Origin: Rugalucina vietnamica
Lineage: Eukaryota > Mollusca > Bivalvia > Lucinida > Lucinidae
Direction of reading: 5' to 3'
DNA length: 64,000 bases
NCBI GenBank assembly: GCA_964017185.1
Contig: OZ024876.1
Coordinates: forward strand, 35,441,278 to 35,505,277
The notes under the pieces: model-generated
What the model saw: the letters and a program-made list of their open reading frames with translations, nothing else
What the model was told of the DNA's origin: nothing
Databases searched by the model: none
Part shown: piece after piece, positions 8,280 through 57,000 of the stretch
How positions within the stretch are numbered: the stretch's first letter is position 1
How the letters are laid out: each line of letters opens with the position of its first letter
Program-made: the position numbers and the translations under genes

Positions 8280-8515
8280 TCGCCCCTCAAGACATGTCCC
8301 CCCCGGTTCCGGGTCATTTCGGCCCATAACCATTTCGGCCCATGGCCATTTCGGCCCATAACCATTTCGGCCCATACAAATAGAGGATAATAGTAGTATA
8401 CTTATGGGCCGAAATGGTTATGGGCCGAGATGGTCATGGGCCGACACTGTCATGGGCCGAATTGGTTATGGGCCGAAATGACCAGTTCCCACCCACCCCC
8501 ACCGCCCCCCCCCCC
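8280..8515. repeat. GGGCCGAAAT foldback inserted in a LINE
   Basis: At 8308-8374 there are four head-to-tail units of the type CCATTTCGGCCCATAA. After a 28-bp spacer, 8403-8482 carries five units in reverse complement (ATGGGCCGAAATGGTT). The two arms could fold into a hairpin about 70 bp long. A C-rich run follows at 8483-8519. It interrupts a LINE fragment. A smaller version lies upstream of the NGLY1 ATG. Confidence 0.8.
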
Positions 8516-8647
8516 CCCGTGGCCTATCCTGGAACTCCCACATAGACCGTATAATTGGAAATACCAATAAAACACTAGGTTACTTTCGGTGTAACATCAA
8601 GATAAAAACCCGAAGGTGAGAGAAACAGCCTTTAATATGCTTGTCCG
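8516..8647 (+). pseudogene. LINE RT fragment, part 2
   Basis: Continues the disrupted LINE. It encodes, with one frameshift, SHIDRIIGNTNKTLGYFR, NIKIK, KVRETAFNMLVR, matching the segment THVDRITGNANRTLGFIR ... KVRERAYNSLVR of the LINE at 1547. It is cut at 8647 by the LTR element and continues at 9063. Confidence 0.75.
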
Positions 8648-8796
8648 TGTCATAGGGTATAGGTATATAGCACACTTGTACTGCCTTGCGGTACAAGCTG
8701 GCTTATACAGCGACGTGGTAGAGTGTTCGCTTGGCACGCGGGAGAACCTGGTTCGATCCCCGTCAGGGAAGAAAGAATTTTTCTTCGCCTGTTACA
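8648..8796 (+). repeat. TRIM 5' LTR with A/B-box tRNA-like sequence
   Basis: Positions 8704-8764 resemble a tRNA without its acceptor stem: an A-box-like GACGTGGTAGAGTG, an anticodon-arm-like TTCGCTTGGCACGCGGG (loop TTGGCAC, nominal anticodon GGC as in tRNA-Ala), and a clean B box GGTTCGATCCC. Upstream is a small hairpin, CTTGTACTGCC / GCGGTACAAG. Such internal boxes normally recruit TFIIIC for RNA polymerase III, unlike ordinary polymerase II LTRs. Activity is not shown. Confidence 0.8.
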
Positions 8797-8811
8797 TTTG
8801 GCGCCCAACGT
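8797..8811 (+). promoter_or_regulatory. Primer-binding site for tRNA-Lys(CUU)
   Basis: TTTGGCGCCCAACGTG spans the LTR junction; TGGCGCCCAACGTG is complementary to the 14 nucleotides at the 3' end (including CCA) of metazoan tRNA-Lys(CUU). This would prime minus-strand DNA synthesis. Confidence 0.85.
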
Positions 8812-8899
8812 GAATTAATCCTATGACCCGTGCAGTAATTCCCCGAGTTTGTTTCCACGATAAACGCTATGGCCTGGGACTTCGGGGACGAAGCCCAAT

Positions 8900-8913
8900 T
8901 AGGTGGGGGAGAA
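8900..8913 (+). promoter_or_regulatory. Polypurine tract of the TRIM
   Basis: TAGGTGGGGGAGAA immediately precedes the TGTCA start of the second LTR, the position expected for the plus-strand primer. Confidence 0.8.
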
Positions 8914-9062
8914 TGTCACAGGTTATAGGTATATAGCACACTTGTACTGCCTTGCGGTACAAGCCGGCTTTTACAGCGACGTGGTAGAGTGTTCGCTTGG
9001 CACGCGGGAGAACCTGGTTCGATCCCCGTCAGGGAAGAAAGAATTTTTCTTCGACCGTTACA
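8914..9062 (+). repeat. TRIM 3' LTR with A/B-box tRNA-like sequence
   Basis: Second copy of the LTR, about 96 percent identical to the first. The tRNA-like segment (8970-9030) and its B box are unchanged. The six differences are all outside the A and B boxes. Confidence 0.85.
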
Positions 9063-9110
9063 TCCGCCTCAGCTGGAATATTCCTCCCCGAGTTGGGACC
9101 CCCATACTGA
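9063..9110 (+). pseudogene. LINE RT fragment, part 3
   Basis: The sequence CCTCAGCTGGAATATTCC and then GAGTTGGGACCCCCAT encodes PQLEYSS and SWDPH in one frame, directly continuing the LVR of part 2 and matching RPQLEYASAVWDPH of the LINE at 1547. The target duplication of the TRIM lies at its left edge. Confidence 0.75.
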
Positions 9111-14924: not shown

Positions 14925-17900
14925 GTAAGTTAAAGTTATTAGATATTAAATGAGCTGCCTCATGGGAAAACCAACAATCTGCATATGCGAAAACAAAGAC
15001 GCAGATCAGCGCCTTTGTTTTCGCTACTCGGATAGTACACTTCCTCTTAGAACTACTTAAATCCGAAATTTCAAGCTTCTAGCCTGCTTCTGTGCTTGTA
15101 CAGGCCGGTTTGTGTCAGACCTGTTCGCAAACCACATTGTTGGTTTTCCCACGAGGTGGATCATATTAAATGTAATCATAATTATCCGGAGGTGGGTGGC
15201 CTTGTCGTCCCAGAGATTGAGGTTTCAAAACCCACTTGTGCCAAGTTGTGTCCTTAAGCAAGACACATGGACTCCCTATAGATCCGGTTAATACATGGAA
15301 AGCGGTGACTGGAATAATTGTTGAATGAGATGTTAAGCTACAAATCAAGCCCGATGGTGTAGTGGTAGAGCATTGGACTCTGAATCGAGAGGTCCTGGGT
15401 TCAATCCCCACAGGCGTCGCCATGTTGTGTCTTTGAGCAAGACACATTAACTCCCTACAGTACTGGTTAAACCCAGGAAGGGTTGGCTCCATCCAGACAT
15501 GAATGAAAAGTTGTTGACTGGGACGTTAAGCCTCAACACAAACAAACAAATAATTATCCATTGTTACATGTAGCTCATCTGAGTCTTCAGGCTCTATGTG
15601 CTTTAACACATGTTTTATTGTTTTCAAATCCCCATTTCATGTGGAATCTCCCAAGAGAAAAATATTTTGCCAAGAAATAAGCTTATCAATTCATTATTAT
15701 GTGAGAAAATGGTAAAGCCATCCAACAGATAGCAGCTCAGACACACAGATATTAAGAATATCCCCAAACTTTCATTCAATACCCAATATCCAGGTTATTT
15801 GATATTTGAGCCGCCTTCTGGGAAAACCAACAATGTGGTTTCTGAACAGGCCCGACACAAATCAGGCTGCACAGTTACAGAAGCAGGCTAGAAGCTTGAA
15901 ATGGAGTTAAGTAAAAATGGAACTGTACTATCCGAGTAGCGTAAACAAAGGCGCTGATCAGTTTTGCGGCTACCGCGAAGCTGATCTGCGTCTTTGTTGT
16001 CGCCTATGCAGATTGTTGGTTTTACCATGTGGCAGCTCATTTCTTGTGGTGTAAAATAGAAGCCTTCTCGAGATTAATTTTTCAGTTCATAGTCAAATTT
16101 TTCCGTTTTCTCATCATGTATGCCACTTACATACTATGAAGATGACAGGCCAAATGCTTGACAAGGAGAATTTTTCTGCATTCCTTCAGGATTCAGGCTA
16201 TGGAGCGGGAGAAGTGTACCCACCTCTACAGTCGGAGAAGTGATTTCAGACACGACTTCAGTCAACTGGAGGACCTAGATAACAAGACAAACTCGGCAAG
16301 AAAAGCTGAACGTAGGTTTCATAAGTTGACAAGAACATTGAAATGACCTGGGCCCATAGTTACTCAGCTGAGCATGAAATTTCAACTGCTCATAAATTTT
16401 GAAATTGTCAAAATTAGTGGGGAATTCAGGTGCAAAACTCAAAAACTTTATCCTGCTCATAAATGTTAAAATGCCAACATTTATATACTTATAAGCAAAA
16501 GTTATATACAGTACCTTTTTCATGTTCAACATAGATGAGCGTAACATCCATAGTACAATATATACTTACAAATGAGCCACCGCATGGGAAAACCAACAAT
16601 CTGCATAGGCAAAAACAAAGGTGCAGATCAGCTTCGCAGAATTCATGAGAAAATAATATGAGCCGCTTCATGAGAAAACCAGTTTTTTGCCTATGCGAAA
16701 ACAAAAGGCGCAGATCAGCTTCGCAGTGACTGCGAAGCTTAAGCTGATCAGGGCCTTTGGGTTCACTACATGCATAGTACTGTTCCTCTTCTTCTTAAAT
16801 CAGAAATTTAAAGCTTCTAGCCGTCCTCTGTGGCTGCACAGACCGGTTTGTATCGGACCTGATCGGAAACCCCGAAGACCATTTTTCTCGCATCACGGCT
16901 CATATGTTACAATGTCGAAATGTTATATGTTACAATGACTGAATGAGAAACATAATAAAAGAACTTTTTCATAGTATGCATTATTGTGCATACCCAACTT
17001 TTAACCAACACTACAATACAAAAACTTGTCCAGAGATTTTTTGATCTTCAAAAATTGAAAATTTTCCACTGAAAAATTTTGATATTAATTTCTTATTATT
17101 TTTGCTCAAAACATAGATTGTGGGTACACGGTTCAAACGAGTACCCACAATCTATGTTTTGGAGCCAAAATAAGAAAAATAGGTATACCCCTGCATACCC
17201 CAGTGTTGCTATATAAAAGAGGGTATACATTACACGGACATGTTTTCGTGATGTAACGTGTTGTTTTCAGAGATCAAGTTAAAACAGCAGCTGGAGAAGA
17301 TCAATCACATGGTGAAAAGATTCCATAAAGAGTTGCGGGACATGAAGCCGACCCCAGAATGTAAGTCACAGTTTCTGTTACTAATAATTGCTTACGTTTT
17401 ACATTTGTTTGCTTTTGGTTGCCCTGTTAGTGCATGATGGAACTTGTAAGCAAACATCTCATCAGGAAAACATGTCCATGAAAAGTATACCTTCTTAAAC
17501 CCCCTTTTTTATAGTAAAACTGGGGTTTACAGGGGTAAACTTTTTATACCCCTGGCATATACGATGTATATAAGGGGTACATGTATATAGTTTTGTCTTT
17601 TCTGTAAAGGTGTTTGTGTGTGTGTGCAAACAATTTTTCTGTCAAATATTTCTCCGGAACTGCTTGACATAGGATGAACATTGTGTATGGTAAGTTGTAT
17701 TGTGTAAGAAAGAATCAGCCATCTCTTGCTTATCAGTCCCTTTCTTTCTCTCTGATTGAAATTTCTGTCTCAGATTTCTCAGCTCCTATTTATGCCAGCG
17801 TCTTCAAATTTTGTATACATCTAGACAGTGTCCAAAGAGAAGATCAGATGGCCAGTATTTGTTTTTCCATTTTTTTTCTGCAGTATTTGCACAGCTGATC

Positions 17901-33300: not shown

Positions 33301-36300
33301 CAGGCCAATTTTCATGAAACTTGGTATGTAGCATTTGGGACTCCAGCCCATCATAGTTTGTTGAAATGATGACCCTATGACGACCTTGACCTATTTTACG
33401 ACAAGGTCAATTTTGGAAACATAGGCTTTCACATGGGAAAAGGCGAAAATAAACTGTTGCAGCCTGAGACCTGAAAGTTGCTAGATGCAGACAACTAATG
33501 GAGTCATTGAAGGTAAGTAATTAATGAAGTCCAAGGTCATGTCTTGACCTTGGCCCAAGGTCATTTAAATATCAAAATTAAAATTATGGTTTTCTCAGAA
33601 ATCACTGGGTTTGGAAACTATTGCAGCCTGAGACCTGCAACTTTGCAGATGCAGACAACTTATGAAGACAATAAAGGTGTGTGAGTATTCAAGGTCAATG
33701 TCATTTCATTATGACTTAATACTCCAAGATCAGGCTTCAGGTGAGCGTTCTCAGGACCAATGGTCCTCTGGTTACACTATATGGAGGAAATAGTCAAAAC
33801 TTTTAATAGTTGTAGGTTCAGAATACATTGGGCTTTTGCCCTAATCATGAAATACCACCACCAGAACCTTTGATACATTGTTATGGTATTTTGAAAACGA
33901 GGCATAAAACCCCTAAGAATGTCACTGATTCTTGGAAAATGGACAGAATATTGAAGATTCTGAAAAAAGAAAATGGCCCAAGGGCTTCATCTGCCCCTGC
34001 ACTGGAGTTAAATACCATAATATTCAAACATGTTTATTGGTATATGCAGCAGATCTCAGGTGAGCGTTTACAGGACCATTGGTCCTCTGGTTGTAGGCTT
34101 AAGCTACCAAAGATCAAATTTTGTTGCACTGAAATAGTTGGGTTTGCAGGTGATCATCAACTCAGTAAATAATGATCATTTTTACATTTCACATTGAAAT
34201 TGAAAATTAAGAAAAGTAGTAACCGCGAAGCTGACCAGCGCCTTTGTTTTTGCCGCAGGGTTAGTACAATGTCTCAACTTTCTAAATCCAAAATTTGCAG
34301 CCTGTAGCCATCATCTGTGGCTGCACAGCCTGATTTATATCAGACCTGGTCGGCTCATTTGAGCCACCCCATGGGAAAACCAACAATCTGCATAGGCGAA
34401 AACAAAGGCGCAGATCAGCTTCGCGGTAACCGCGAAGCTGATCAGCGGCTTTGTTTTCGCTACTCAGATAGTACAATTCCTCCTCTACTTAACTCCAAAA
34501 TTTCAAGCTTCTAGCCTGCTTCTGTGCTTGTACAGGCCGGTTTGTGTCAGACCTGTTCGGAAACCACATTGTTGGTTTTCCCACGAGGCGGCGCATTTGT
34601 TTTCTCTTTTTTGTGTTTAACAGGTACAGAAAGAACTAGAGAAAGCCCAAAGAGAAGAGAGAAAACTGAGAGAAGAGTTAGACAAACGGAAGAAGCAGGA
34701 AGACTGGAAGAAAAAACAGGTACTGTAAACCGTTGCATATTGTGTTTTGTTTTGACTTCAAGTTTTAGCTTACCTGAGCAGAAGGCTCACAAGATGAGCT
34801 TATAGGATGGTACTCGAGCTTGCGCCTGTGCATCCTGTGCAGCCCACTGGGCTAATTGCAATTACAGGGCTTTTATGTTTTGTGTGTAGCAATGTATTAG
34901 TACATGTACTCCTCTTTATAAATTTTGCCAACTATGCTCCTGGAGACCATACAGGCCACGCCCCGGGGGGCATCATTATCTTCTCTGAAACCATTTGCCC
35001 TATCCTGGGGACCATAAGCTTCCATATTCTTACAATGGAATAATGGAATAAAACAATATTAAAATATTTTTCTCTAAAACCATGAGCCCTAGAGCTTTTA
35101 TGTTTGGTTGTAGCAATGCATAGTAATCCTCTGTATAAATCCTGTCAATCATGCCCCTGGGGTTCATATGTGCAGGCCTTCAGGGTGTGATCATCTGACC
35201 TTTAAACTTATTATGAGCAAATCTTTCAGGTGAGCTTCAGGACTTTGGTTCTCTTGTATTTATTAAACCTTACAATCTTTGTAGTCTGGACAAACTATCA
35301 ATCAGCAAAAATGTGCTTTGGAAGTTTCAATAAAGCACCTGATATTTACCAACTGCATGCATATGCTAAAATCAAATTTTGTTTGTTTATTTGTATTGAG
35401 GCTTAACATCCCAGTCAACAATTTTTCAGTCCTGGCGGGACGGAGCCAACTCTTCCTGGGTTTCTGAAGGGAATTAATGTGTCTTGCTCAAGGACACAAT
35501 ATGGTGACTCCTGTTGGGATTGAACCCAGGACCTCTCGATTCGGAGTCCTATGCTCTACCACTACGCCACCGCACTCCCTAAAAACAAAATCAAGGCATA
35601 GAGCATCTGCTTAGTAACTGAGGAGCTGATCAGCACTTTTTGTTATGCTACACAGCATAAATGCAGACAGTAATGCAGATGCATTAGTTGTGTGCATCCC
35701 CACTTTTCAGGTCTCAGGCTGCAATAGTTTTCATAGAACAATTATTTTATGATTATAAATGACCTTTGTTTTATTGTAGGAAGAAATGAAGGCCCAGGTG
35801 GAACAACATCGTCGACAGAAACAGGAAGAGGAAGAGTTCTTGAAGCAGCAAGAGGCATTGTGGGAAGAAGAGGAAAGAGAGAGGAAGAAACAGATGTCAG
35901 CAAGGGAAATAACCAAGTTTAGACAGAGAGTAAGTTAGCTCACTTGATGATCAGGGTATGGATCCTCTACGACTTGGGCTTCTACAGGTCCTTCGGATGA
36001 GACTTAAATCAAGGGCAGTCTCCTTTGTTGTTGAGGGGCAGGTTAAACACAGAATCCACGGAATGCAATTAACCAATCCTTTATAACAGATTAAACTTAA
36101 ATGTTAATGATGTTAGAGATTTTGAACATTGAACTGCAAACTTACAGTCACTCTATGCCTATGTTTATCTTCTCAGGAGGAGAAAACCAGATATTTGCAT
36201 ATGCAAAAACAAAGGCGCAGATCAGCTGTGCAGTAACTGCACAGCTGATCAGCGCCTTTGTTTTTGCTACACATGTAGTACAATTTCTCTTCTACTTTTA

Positions 36301-53722: not shown

Positions 53723-56700
53723 TTATTTCTTGAATAGTGCTGATGTGTGTTGGTGAGTTCTTTGATGGCTGACTAGGCCAATTCTGGCTCTAAACTGTCG
53801 GTTGCAAGTAGAGCAAGTCAATGTCATAGAGTCTGCTGGTGGCACATTTGTTTTGGCTTTGCGCTCTCTTCGCTTTCTTTCAGCTTCACAGATTCTCTTC
53901 TTTTCATAGAGAGCTGCTCCTTTGTTGATGAGACCTCGCCACTTTGATCGCTCCTGTGCAGTCTGTTCCCAGGACCCCATTGGTATTTCGAAATCCTTCA
54001 GAGAGGCTTTGAGGGTGTCTTTGTAGCGTTTCTTCTGGCCGCCTTGAGAGCGCTTTCCCTCCTGTAGTTCTCCATAGAAAACTTTCTTTGGAAGTCGCGC
54101 ATCAGGCATTCTTATAACATGGCCAGTCCATCTTAGCTGTGCTAGCTTTAAGACTGTATGCATGCTTTGCATCCCTGCTTTCCTCAGGACCTCTGTGTCT
54201 GGAATCTTGTCCTGCCACTTGATTTTTAACAACTTTCTCAAACAGCTTAAGTGGAAATGGTTAAGTCTGTTTGCATGGCGTTGGTATACTGTCCAGGTCT
54301 CACATGCATACAAGAGGGTTGGCAGTACCACAGCCTTGTAGACTTTCAGCTTGGTGTCAAGCTTGATTCCATTTCGCTCCCAGACATTTGCACGGAGTCT
54401 TCCGAATGCCACACTAGCTTTTGCAATTCTGGCAGTGATCTCATCATCAATATGCACTGCTCTGGAGAGAGTGCTTCCCAGGTAGGTGAACTTGTCAACA
54501 ACTTTCAGTTTTTGCCCATTCACAGTGATGGTTGGTTCATTATATGGTTTTCCGGGGGCTGGTTGGTGTACAACCTCTGTCTTTTTTGTGCTGATTGTGA
54601 GATCATAGTTATCACATGACTGTGAGACTTGATCCATGGCTCTTTGCATTTTTGCCTCTGTGTTGGCATTCTTATCCATATCATCTGCATAGAGGAGCTC
54701 ATCTAGCACATCAGTCTGGACCTTAGTTTTGGCTTGCAACCTTCTGAGGTTGAATATGTTGCCATCAAAACGGTACCTGATTGGAAAACCAGTGTCACTG
54801 TCCTGAAAAGCATCCATAAGCATGGCAGAAAACATCATACTGAACAGTGTTGGTGCCAGAACACAGCCTTGTTTGACCCCATTTGTTACTTCAAATGGTT
54901 CAGAGAACTCTCCATCATTTTGCACACGTGCCTGCATGCCATCATGAAACTGCCGCACCATAGCTATGAATCTTGGTGGACAGCCAAACTTGGCCATGAT
55001 TTTCCAGAGTCCATCACGACTAACAGTGTCAAAAGCTTTGGTGAGGTCAACAAACGTCATGTATAGATCTACATTCTGTTCTTGGCATTTCTCCTGAAGC
55101 TGTCTTGCTGTGAAGATCATGTCTATTGTCCCTCTGTCTTTTCTGAATCCACATTGACTTTCTGGGATAAGTCCCGTCTGATCAAGATGAGCATTCAGAC
55201 GATTCAACAGAATTTTTGCAAGTATCTTCCCAGCAATTGATAGGAGGGAGATGCCTCTGTGATTGTCACAGACTTGATGATTTCCTTTCCGCTTGTATAG
55301 GTGGATTATGGATGCATCCTTAAATTCTTGTGGGATAGCCTCCTTCCTCCACATACAGTGAAACAACTCTGTCAGTTTCTCTGCCATGGGTAGCCCCCCA
55401 GCCTTGTAAACTTCGGCAGGAATTGCATCTGCACCTGGGGCTTTGCCAGATGATAGTTGTTGAACTGCTTTTCTTGTTTCCGTAACGGTAGGAAATTCAT
55501 CTAACAGGACACAGCACTCTATCTGTGGAAGTCTGTCGATTGCATCCTGATTGATGCTTGATGGTCGATTAAGCACACTATTGAAGTGTTCTGCCCACCT
55601 TTCCAAGATAGCTTCTTTATCTGTGAGAAGAGTGTTTCCATCTTCACTGAGCAATGTGGTGGCTCCAGAACTCTTTGGACCATAAATGGTTTTCAGTGCA
55701 TCATGAAATTTCTTCATGTCCTTTCTATCCGCAAAAGACTGAATTTCTTCTGTTTTCTTCCTCAGCCAGGAATCTTGCATGTCCCTAAGCTGGGTCTGGA
55801 CTGTCTTACAAATGTTGCTGTAGGCTGCTTTCTTTGATGCTGAGCTAGTATCATCTTGATGTGCCTTGAGCAAACGGTGCTTTTCTTCAAGAAGCCTCTG
55901 AATTTCATCATCATTCTCATCAAACCAGTCTTGATGTTTGCGAGATGGATGGCCTAAGGTGCTTGCAGCTGAAGAAAGAATTGTTTTATGGAAAACTGTC
56001 CAGTTTTCTTCGGGGTCCTCTGAACTGAGATTCATTGCATTCAGTTGGTTGCAAATGTCTGTTAAGAAATCTTGTCTCATGCTGTCTTTATTCAGCTTTG
56101 AGACATCCAGTCTCTTAGGAGCTTTCTTGCCTTGAGGGCGCCTCTCAGGCTGTATTCTTAGGTTGAGTTTGCTGACAACCAGTCTATGATCTGTCCAGCA
56201 GTCTGCACCACACATAGTCTTTGTCACTTTAACATCCTGCCTGTCTGTTCTCCGCACTATGACATAGTCTATGAGATGCCAGTGTTTGGAACGGGGATGC
56301 ATCCAGGATGTTTTGTTCCTATTAGGTAGACGGAAGACTGTGTTGGTGATTAGAAGATCATGTTCAGCACACTTCCTGAGAAGCAAGAGACCATTGCTGT
56401 TGCACTTTCCAACCCCTTCTGGACCTATATCTCCTTCCCAGGTCTGGTGGTCTGTACCCACTCTGGCATTAAAGTCGCCAAGAAGGATAAGCTTGTCTGT
56501 GCGGGGTGTTGCAGAAATAACATTGTCTAGGTCATCATAGAACTTGTCCTTGACCTCATCTGGATTGGTCATTGTGGGTGCATAAGCACTGACAATAGTT
56601 GCATGTTTATTGCCTGACATAGGAAGTCTCAATGTCATTAGACGGTCATTTATGCCTTTTGGCAATCCTGACAGCTTACCAACAAGTTCTGTTTTGATGG

Positions 56701-57000
56701 CAAAGCCAACTCCTGCTTCACGCCTTTCTTCACTTTTGCGTCCACTCCAGAAGAAGGTGTATCCAGCACCAACTTCTTTGATCTCCCCAACATCTGCGAA
56801 CCGAGTCTCACTCAATGCAGCTATCTGTATATCATACCTCCCAAGTTCTCTGCCCACAAGGGCCGTTCTACGCTGTGGTCTATCTGACCCAGCACTATCC
56901 ATTAAAGTGCGCACATTCCATGCGCCAATCCGTAAGGGGATTACTCTAGCTTTTTTCTTTGTATTTCGACCGCTTAAGGGGATCCCCGCTGATCGCGGTT
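53723..57000 (-). CDS. LINE ORF2: apurinic endonuclease, reverse transcriptase, C2H2 finger
   Basis: A single open frame of about 1,090 codons. From the ATG at 56914 (1,063 residues): APE-type endonuclease (LSETRF at 34, LLGDFNARVG at 144, WTDHRLVVS at 240), RT (KAPGADAIPAEVYK at 491, GFRKDRGTIDMI at 589, FVDLTKAFDTVSRDGLW at 621, VKQGCVLAPTLFSMMFSAML at 680, YADD at 742) and a terminal C2H2 finger (Cys1034, Cys1037, His1050, His1054). The ATG falls inside the first endonuclease strand; the frame continues upstream through RIGAWNVRTL to a TAA near 57002 with no ATG, so the true start is unclear (non-AUG or a lost start). Animal databases often mislabel such ORFs as craniofacial development protein 2-like. 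Confidence 0.88.

Follow-up and report, generated by a model that had tools for sequence, protein, structure and literature searches.

The 415-bp element at positions 8648-9062 of the window, by which we mean the whole 64-kb stretch analyzed (C8:35441278-35505277 of the 1.09-Gb Rugalucina vietnamica assembly), is most probably (about 0.85) a TRIM of the Helenus type, with a tRNA-derived, pol III-type promoter in its long terminal repeat (LTR) and copied by a Gypsy particle. Judged from sequence, the element spread as a 149-117-149 unit with 4-bp duplications, and it is found joined, inside units bounded by such duplications, to a Gypsy LTR and reverse transcriptase (RT) on contig C5 and to another LTR at locus L011. 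Its primer site and the imprints left in recombinants point to tRNA-Lys(CTT).

Structure of the element

A complete miniature LTR retrotransposon without genes occupies window positions 8648-9062. Direct reading and self-comparison divide its 415 bp into an LTR of 149 bp, an internal part of 117 bp and a second LTR of 149 bp, with the following features.

8644-8647, no strand: target site duplication (TSD) TCCG, left copy, read in the sequence
8648-8796, + strand: 5' LTR, 149 bp, TGT..ACA, the same length in most dispersed copies
8664-8669 (LTR 17-22), + strand: TATATA, possible TATA box (pol II or pol III), putative function
8675-8697 (LTR 28-50), + strand: 7-bp inverted repeat CTTGTAC..GTACAAG, upstream of the tRNA-like part
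8708-8718 (LTR 61-71), second copy 8974-8984, + strand: A-box-like CAGCGACGTGG, 2 mismatches to consensus
8716-8760 (LTR 69-113), second copy 8982-9026, + strand: tRNA-Ala-like segment, D arm to B box, by shuffle test
8750-8760 (LTR 103-113), second copy 9016-9026, + strand: B box GGTTCGATCCC, perfect, by motif match
8768-8786, + strand: inverted repeat GAAGAAA..TTTCTTC enclosing the T5 run
8778-8782 (LTR 131-135), second copy 9044-9048, + strand: T5 run, candidate pol III terminator
8797-8913, + strand: internal part, 117 bp, no gene
8799-8812, + strand: primer binding site (PBS) TGGCGCCCAACGTG, complementary to 14 nt of tRNA-Lys(CTT)
8905-8913, + strand: polypurine tract GGGGGAGAA, abutting the start of the 3' LTR
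8914-9062, + strand: 3' LTR, 149 bp
9063-9066, no strand: target site duplication TCCG, right copy, read in the sequence

The flanks read ..GTCCG, element, TCCGCC.., and the primer site TGGCGCCCAACGTG starts two bases past the end of the 5' LTR. All of the LTR landmarks named by the initial annotation (149-bp LTRs of the TG..CA type, tRNA-Lys primer site, polypurine tract, duplication) are present in the window as read, and the coding part is indeed gone, the 117-bp internal part containing no gene. The two LTRs of the window copy differ at LTR positions 6, 10, 52, 58, 141 and 143. Neither AATAAA nor ATTAAA occurs in the 415 bp of the element. No further copy of the LTR or of the internal part was found in the 64-kb window, where only short chance matches turned up, and the element sequence had no match in a plasmid search or in two viral-contig searches.

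Just upstream, at window positions 8312-8483, lies a long inverted repeat of ATGGGCCGAAATGGTT-type units, with related pieces at 1410-1447; it scores under the cut-off against several miRNA families, probably as a consequence of being a hairpin mobile element. The window also encodes, on the minus strand at 53726-56998, an uninterrupted LINE protein of 1091 aa with endonuclease and RT. The closest protein in the database shares 98% identity with it and represents 2422 member sequences, so this LINE looks young and abundant.

The tRNA-like part of the LTR

Mismatches in the A and B boxes were counted against consensus motifs. The B box is exact in both LTRs, as the initial annotation had it; shuffling the LTR by dinucleotides 5000 times produced a perfect B box twice, and no third one exists on either strand of the window. 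The A box described with it is a candidate, neither exact nor unique. Apart from its two mismatches, other stretches of the LTR (LTR 42-54, for example) fit the consensus as well as LTR 61-71 does, so its placement rests on the tRNA alignment. A combination of A and B boxes of equal quality arises in 12 of 5000 dinucleotide shuffles.

The likeness of the LTR to tRNA-Ala, also part of the original description, is beyond chance. Against E. coli tRNA-Ala(GGC), which serves as an external yardstick and is not a host tRNA (loci L001 and L002 are E. coli tRNA genes, and L003-L097 were fetched from the host genome), the LTR scores 38, a value that 0 of 2000 shuffles reach. Its score against two tRNA-Val genes is 26 (reached by 18 of 2000 shuffles) and against two tRNA-Lys genes 20 (reached by 558 of 2000). 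The LTR thus reads as tRNA-like, yet it is no recognized tRNA: ARAGORN at its default settings and Rfam at E 10 return no tRNA or other match in the element. With a lowered threshold, ARAGORN names tRNA-Ala (ggc) in both LTRs; with introns allowed in addition, it makes further, unconvincing calls as well. LTR position 86, a G in the 5' LTR of the window copy, is an A in most copies, making the anticodon-like triplet AGC.

That the six differences between the two LTRs spare both boxes is true but weak, the probability that six randomly placed differences would all miss the boxes being 0.38; the probability of a difference-free stretch of at least 82 nt is 0.05. Stronger conservation of the boxes than of the rest of the LTR had been anticipated and was not seen. 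Among 47 LTR copies, which are the nearest relatives of the queries and not a random sample, the boxes hold 5 minority letters in 22 columns, a count no higher than this being found for 32% of random 11-mer pairs; the T5 run is invariant in the same 47. At this depth, box conservation neither backs nor counters promoter function.

Two copies of a tRNA-derived SINE, 85% alike, lie on the minus strand of the window at 15352-15553 and 35379-35572, and they carry A and B boxes and a TTGAGCAAGACACAT core. They align weakly to the LTR, with local scores of 23 and 19, and are not closely related to it.

A dispersed family

An LTR query of the genome listed 42 matches, the best 40 of 740 first-look candidates having been scored, and a query with the internal part listed 40, with 40 of 119 candidates scored. 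Among the places read (L003-L073), 28 internal parts are flanked by two near-complete LTRs; two of the 28 are halves of the tandem L069, which leaves 27 distinct insertions. Complete copies with varied duplications, as predicted by the initial annotation, are the rule: a perfect 4-bp TSD of varied sequence accompanies 23 of the 27 insertions, compared with a mean of 1.5 matching 4-bp duplications when flanks are shuffled among insertions. In 22 insertions the perfect 4-bp duplication is direct, and none extends to 5 bp; the tandem L069 has TGTG (actually TGTGTG) at its outer ends. Duplications at L063 and L071 are off by one letter, and none was found at L045 and L051 among the 27 insertions checked. 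One single LTR, L021, is flanked by TAGA on both sides, while another, L036, has no duplication at its flanks. Half of the gap-free LTR pairs (10 of 20) are identical, so the family moved recently. The window copy, with its six LTR differences, is the second most divergent of those 20 pairs.

The tRNA-like part does not lie at random positions relative to the LTR ends, an outcome the initial annotation had allowed for; its place is fixed, across copies, within LTRs of 149 bp or nearly so. The same annotation had considered a tandem SINE. A SINE or tRNA pseudogene duplicated in tandem, with no retrotransposon involved, would place a tRNA-like segment in both repeats, as observed, but this explanation is exceedingly improbable in the face of a 149-117-149 layout that recurs with varied 4-bp TSDs in 23 of 27 insertions, a primer site and a purine tract, a solo LTR with the TSD TAGA, tRNA-copied primer sites in recombinants (see below) and window SINEs that align as weakly as 23 and 19. 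The tandem SINE is rejected by the genome copies, and chance similarity to tRNA is rejected by the shuffles.

Locus L069:1353-2035 is an LTR-internal-LTR-internal-LTR array inside one TGTG duplication. A 1.3-kb stretch on contigs C4 and C7 (L035:807-2108 and L041:1832-3131), 99.4% identical between the two, includes a Helenus copy whose 5' LTR is interrupted by an insert; the stretch may be a recent duplication or a larger mobile unit.

A sister family and the choice of polymerase

A second LTR type adjoins the copy at L051 and precedes another internal part at L058. This sister LTR, 115 bp in L051, is tRNA-Thr(GGT)-like and is accepted by both ARAGORN and Rfam, with Rfam scores of 58.5, 52.7 and 46.8 bits against a cut-off of 29. 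It has a T4-T5 run in the same place as the Ala-type family and a CTGTGACA end. In both families a similar TTCGGGGACGAA palindrome closes the internal part, with a purine tract after it. Bivalve Helenus families able to encode tRNA-Thr are on record (Kojima 2024, PMC10886601). A complete sister Helenus of 352 bp with 115-bp LTRs lies at L051:1772-2123; it has no matching duplication, and an Ala-type copy is located 5 bp away. LTRs that resemble tRNA-Thr so closely probably raise the number of tRNA genes counted in this genome.

Pol III probably transcribes the element, using the A and B boxes, the grounds being the B box, the T5 run and the lack of a polyadenylation signal. The sister family, with its tRNA-Thr at 46.8-58.5 bits and T4-T5 at the same place, is a point in favor, and the upstream TATATA, which would suit pol II as well, is a point against. 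The same TRIM might instead be transcribed by pol II from the TATATA-bearing LTR, with the tRNA-like part a SINE leftover or a sequence with some other role, such as RNA packaging. We consider this unlikely. TATATA at LTR 17-22, an A box that is imperfect and not unique, and boxes without excess conservation all agree with it, but the element has no AATAAA or ATTAAA, unlike both of the foreign LTRs that recombined with it, and it combines a perfect B box with an invariant T5. Moreover, the sister family, with a far better tRNA, has the same layout, and fungi, fish and wasps also have TRIMs with tRNA-like LTRs (PMC10886601).

The primer site and imprints of tRNA-Lys

The host genome holds 25 exact matches of the tRNA-Lys 3' end that fits the primer site, and ARAGORN reports tRNA-Lys (ctt) for both of the loci fetched from among them. 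The tRNA-Lys primer site read at the outset is therefore matched by a host tRNA, TGGCGCCCAACGTG being complementary to 14 nt of host tRNA-Lys(CTT). The 18 terminal nt of that tRNA, CCA included, are complementary to TGGCGCCCAACGTGGGGC, which the accessible part of PMC1084362 lists for Lys1,2. The element itself has the first 14 nt of the tRNA-Lys complement and then AATT.

When plus-strand strong-stop DNA is made, copying runs into the primer tRNA as far as a modified base, usually for 18 nt. Of 37 distinct PBS starts, 2 have the 18-nt form with GGGC. They are exactly those of the C5 and L011 units, and each follows a foreign LTR; given the usual span of strong-stop copying, we read the GGGC as a copy of the tRNA itself. 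An LTR of a foreign family stands ahead of the PBS in 4 of the 37 starts (L075, L011, L057 and L058), a set that is not random, L075 having been reached via the foreign LTR and L011 via the LTR query; among 30 loci drawn by the internal part, the number is 2. L057 and L058 have the foreign LTR in front and keep the native AATT, and no duplication is definable at these two loci.

The head-to-head LTR junctions in L010 and L029/L040 hold the same 18 nt. Two palindromes of this kind, L040:2191-2450 (C8, ~54.149 Mb) and L010:1460-1649, in which LTRs are joined head to head via the 18-nt tRNA-Lys copy, are likely fossil strong-stop DNA ends. The L040 palindrome resembles miRNA hairpins in Rfam, under the cut-offs.

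Mosaics with Gypsy and a candidate partner

At L010 the Helenus LTR stands head to head with a 460-bp LTR that starts with TGTCACAG and ends in CGTTACA. Elsewhere in the genome, 62 matches to the 460-bp LTR were listed, with 40 of 47 candidates scored. A unit at C5:55975661-55982813, with CATA on both sides, starts with this 460-bp Gypsy LTR, a spacer T, the 18-nt tRNA copy, one T beyond expectation after that imprint, and the Helenus internal part; it continues through the Helenus purine tract and the Helenus LTR as far as the T5 run and CTTCG, passes into Gypsy RT, and closes with a Gypsy-like purine tract and a second 460-bp LTR. The unit was read at its ends, the middle 5.3 kb lying outside the stretches read. 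Its RT domain matches Pfam RVT_1 with 37.0 bits in 70 aa; a copy with the same LTR type at C11:48539304-48551658 has an RT with 101.7 bits to RVT_1 and the natural upstream sequence. CTTCG at the C5 junction is common to both parents, as is GGAAGAAAGA nearby, so the switch followed short similarity. With CTTCG common to both parents, the position of this junction at T5 is no proof of a pol III 3' end. The unit shows that the internal part and the 3' LTR as far as T5 once lay on a single RNA or cDNA, whose start and end it does not mark.

The second unit, at L011, has CCTT on both sides and consists of a foreign 746-bp LTR, the 18-nt tRNA copy, the Helenus internal part and the Helenus 3' LTR. 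This 746-bp LTR is not assigned to any family; its first ~185 bases precede the Helenus PBS in L057, behind a purine tract. AATAAA is present in both the 460-bp and the 746-bp LTR.

Copies of the 460-bp type share several features with Helenus. In all three of those read, the primer site shares TGGCGCCC, 8 letters of the PBS, and the internal start differs; at the 3' end, the same purine tract GGGGGAGAA precedes TGTCACAG. The initial annotation had suggested that a Gypsy element sharing the primer site and the internal ends might exist, and this is borne out for the LTR tips, the first 8 nt of the PBS and the end of the purine tract, and not for the internal start. A copy at C11:15170436-15181396 has the duplication TGTA, and a single LTR of this type on C6 has CAGT. 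Two copies show a PNMA Gag-like stretch with 19.4 bits, under the cut-off of 25, and a protease-like stretch with 21.9 bits, under the cut-off of 24.3; the RT of the 460-LTR Gypsy was not met in five of six stretches read at guessed places. Four open-frame stretches of Gypsy copies were compared with Pfam in unaltered form.

One TSD-bounded unit and one head-to-head junction with the same 460-bp LTR constitute the evidence for mobilization by Gypsy, and from these we infer mobilization itself. Since Gypsy LTR and RT are joined to the element in the duplication-bounded C5 unit, the original proposal that Gypsy-type machinery copies it is directly supported, and we regard a Gypsy partnership of this element as highly probable. 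The mosaics could alternatively be nested insertions or products of later genomic recombination, with Gypsy a bystander and not a helper. Nested and rearranged neighbors do occur at L039, L042, L057 and L058, and the internal start of the Gypsy copies differs from that of the element. After a nested insertion, however, the element would be intact and flanked by a duplication of its own, and what is seen is two units with matching outer 4-bp duplications in which the LTR switch falls exactly at the PBS and brings the 18-nt copy; the bystander explanation is accordingly quite improbable.

Two further loci show Helenus sequence next to Gypsy-like sequence. At L039:1276-3087, with ATGA on both sides, an LTR, an internal part and the first 42 bp of an LTR are followed by 1355 bp of other sequence, which contains a Gypsy-like piece running from purine tract to LTR, and then by a complete LTR; this is a possible third mosaic. 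At L042:324-9707, a Gypsy copy with identical 332-bp LTRs abuts a Helenus LTR and PBS. It has two long open frames and a small one, the largest taking up nearly half of the element, and by Pfam its unaltered frames include a PNMA-like Gag frame and RT, RNase H and integrase. We dropped it as a candidate partner: it lies directly against the PBS, its flanks show no matching duplication, and its repeat lacks the ACA end.

A proposed replication cycle

In the cycle that we propose, pol III would start a little before the A box, around LTR 50-55. A stop at the T5 run of the 5' LTR would yield a dead-end RNA of ~80 nt, and read-through to the T5 run of the 3' LTR a template RNA of ~350 nt, in which R would be the tRNA-like part and U5 would measure ~14 nt. 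The difficulty is that the T5 run of the 5' LTR must be read through for a pol III transcript to include the primer site. A Gypsy particle would package the element RNA and prime it with tRNA-Lys, and Gypsy integrase would insert the product. Plus-strand strong-stop DNA of the helper would transfer in trans onto the Helenus minus strand, a step that would explain why L011 has a foreign 5' LTR and the GGGC imprint and keeps its Helenus 3' LTR. Under this model, the C5 and L011 mosaics are the trace to be expected of reverse transcription in a shared particle.

Relation to known elements

TRIMs with tRNA-like LTRs were named Helenus by Kojima (2024, PMC10886601), who proposed the term TRIMp3 and described 51 families in bivalves of five pteriomorph orders; animal Helenus have 4-bp duplications and Gypsy-like primer sites. 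A meeting report also mentions that work. The element was first interpreted as an animal analogue of the plant TRIM Cassandra. That reading fits, but it is not new, such elements having been published as Helenus in 2024 (PMC10886601). Like nearly all Helenus, which are under 1000 bp, the element is a TRIM without genes, 415 bp long; it has a tRNA-like sequence with A and B boxes in the LTR, a PBS for a tRNA 3' end (tRNA-Lys occurs among the bivalve families), a purine tract, a Gypsy-like PBS region and, as in animal Helenus, a 4-bp TSD, perfect in 23 of 27 insertions. Most Helenus have box B GGTTC and box A TRGCY plus YGG (PMC10886601); the element matches in box B and in the TGG of box A, whereas its A box starts with CAGCG and not TRGCY. 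It differs in that its LTR is tRNA-Ala-like and not recognized as tRNA. For animal Helenus, PMC10886601 deduces the Gypsy partner from PBS similarity; here one unit enclosed by a duplication contains both a Gypsy element and this element, joined together. The published description places the element family in Helenus, and it is possibly in Repbase already.

According to the accessible parts of PMC7215508, Cassandra likewise has a pol III promoter in its LTRs and forms tandem LTR-internal-LTR arrays, here represented by L069, but it belongs to plants and its promoter is that of 5S rRNA; Rfam finds no match at E 10 in the element that would indicate an LTR derived from 5S rRNA. No autonomous partner is known for Cassandra, per Kojima (PMC10886601). 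The bivalve biv-TRIM (PMC6934838, in the portions available) is an animal TRIM with short repeats and the purine tract GGGGAGA in most copies, and tandem arrays like L069 are described for it as for Cassandra. It differs in having repeats of 202-218 bp and an internal part of 77-80 bp, against 149 and 117 bp in the element, and those portions report no clear PBS and no tRNA-like promoter. In cestodes, ta-TRIM and its candidate helper lennie have a common tRNA primer site at the same distance and mostly 4-bp TSDs, as given in the accessible text of PMC4558846, a paper whose main text does not contain the term polymerase III. A tRNA-derived SINE has a single tRNA head and neither LTR, PBS nor fixed 4-bp TSD, and the element does not match that description.

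The kind of element is known, then, and the evidence for its partner is new here; in the accessible parts of the open-licence literature searched, we found no report of units that identify a Helenus partner in this way. Helenus was described from consensus sequences of repeats, and the mosaics are natural records of both templates being copied together. They point to a concrete partner and suggest that LTR similarity beyond the tips is unnecessary. The 18-nt tRNA imprint beside a foreign LTR is a searchable footprint that can be counted in any genome.

More tentatively, and with the odds somewhat against it, pol III-made RNA may be a regular passenger of Gypsy particles, probably those of more than one family, with the LTR swapped at the primer site and an 18-nt imprint left behind. 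If this is true, mini-elements of the pol III type and Gypsy elements of the pol II type would exchange promoters and internal parts, and new TRIM families would arise through LTR exchange as well, and not solely through insertion of a SINE into an LTR.
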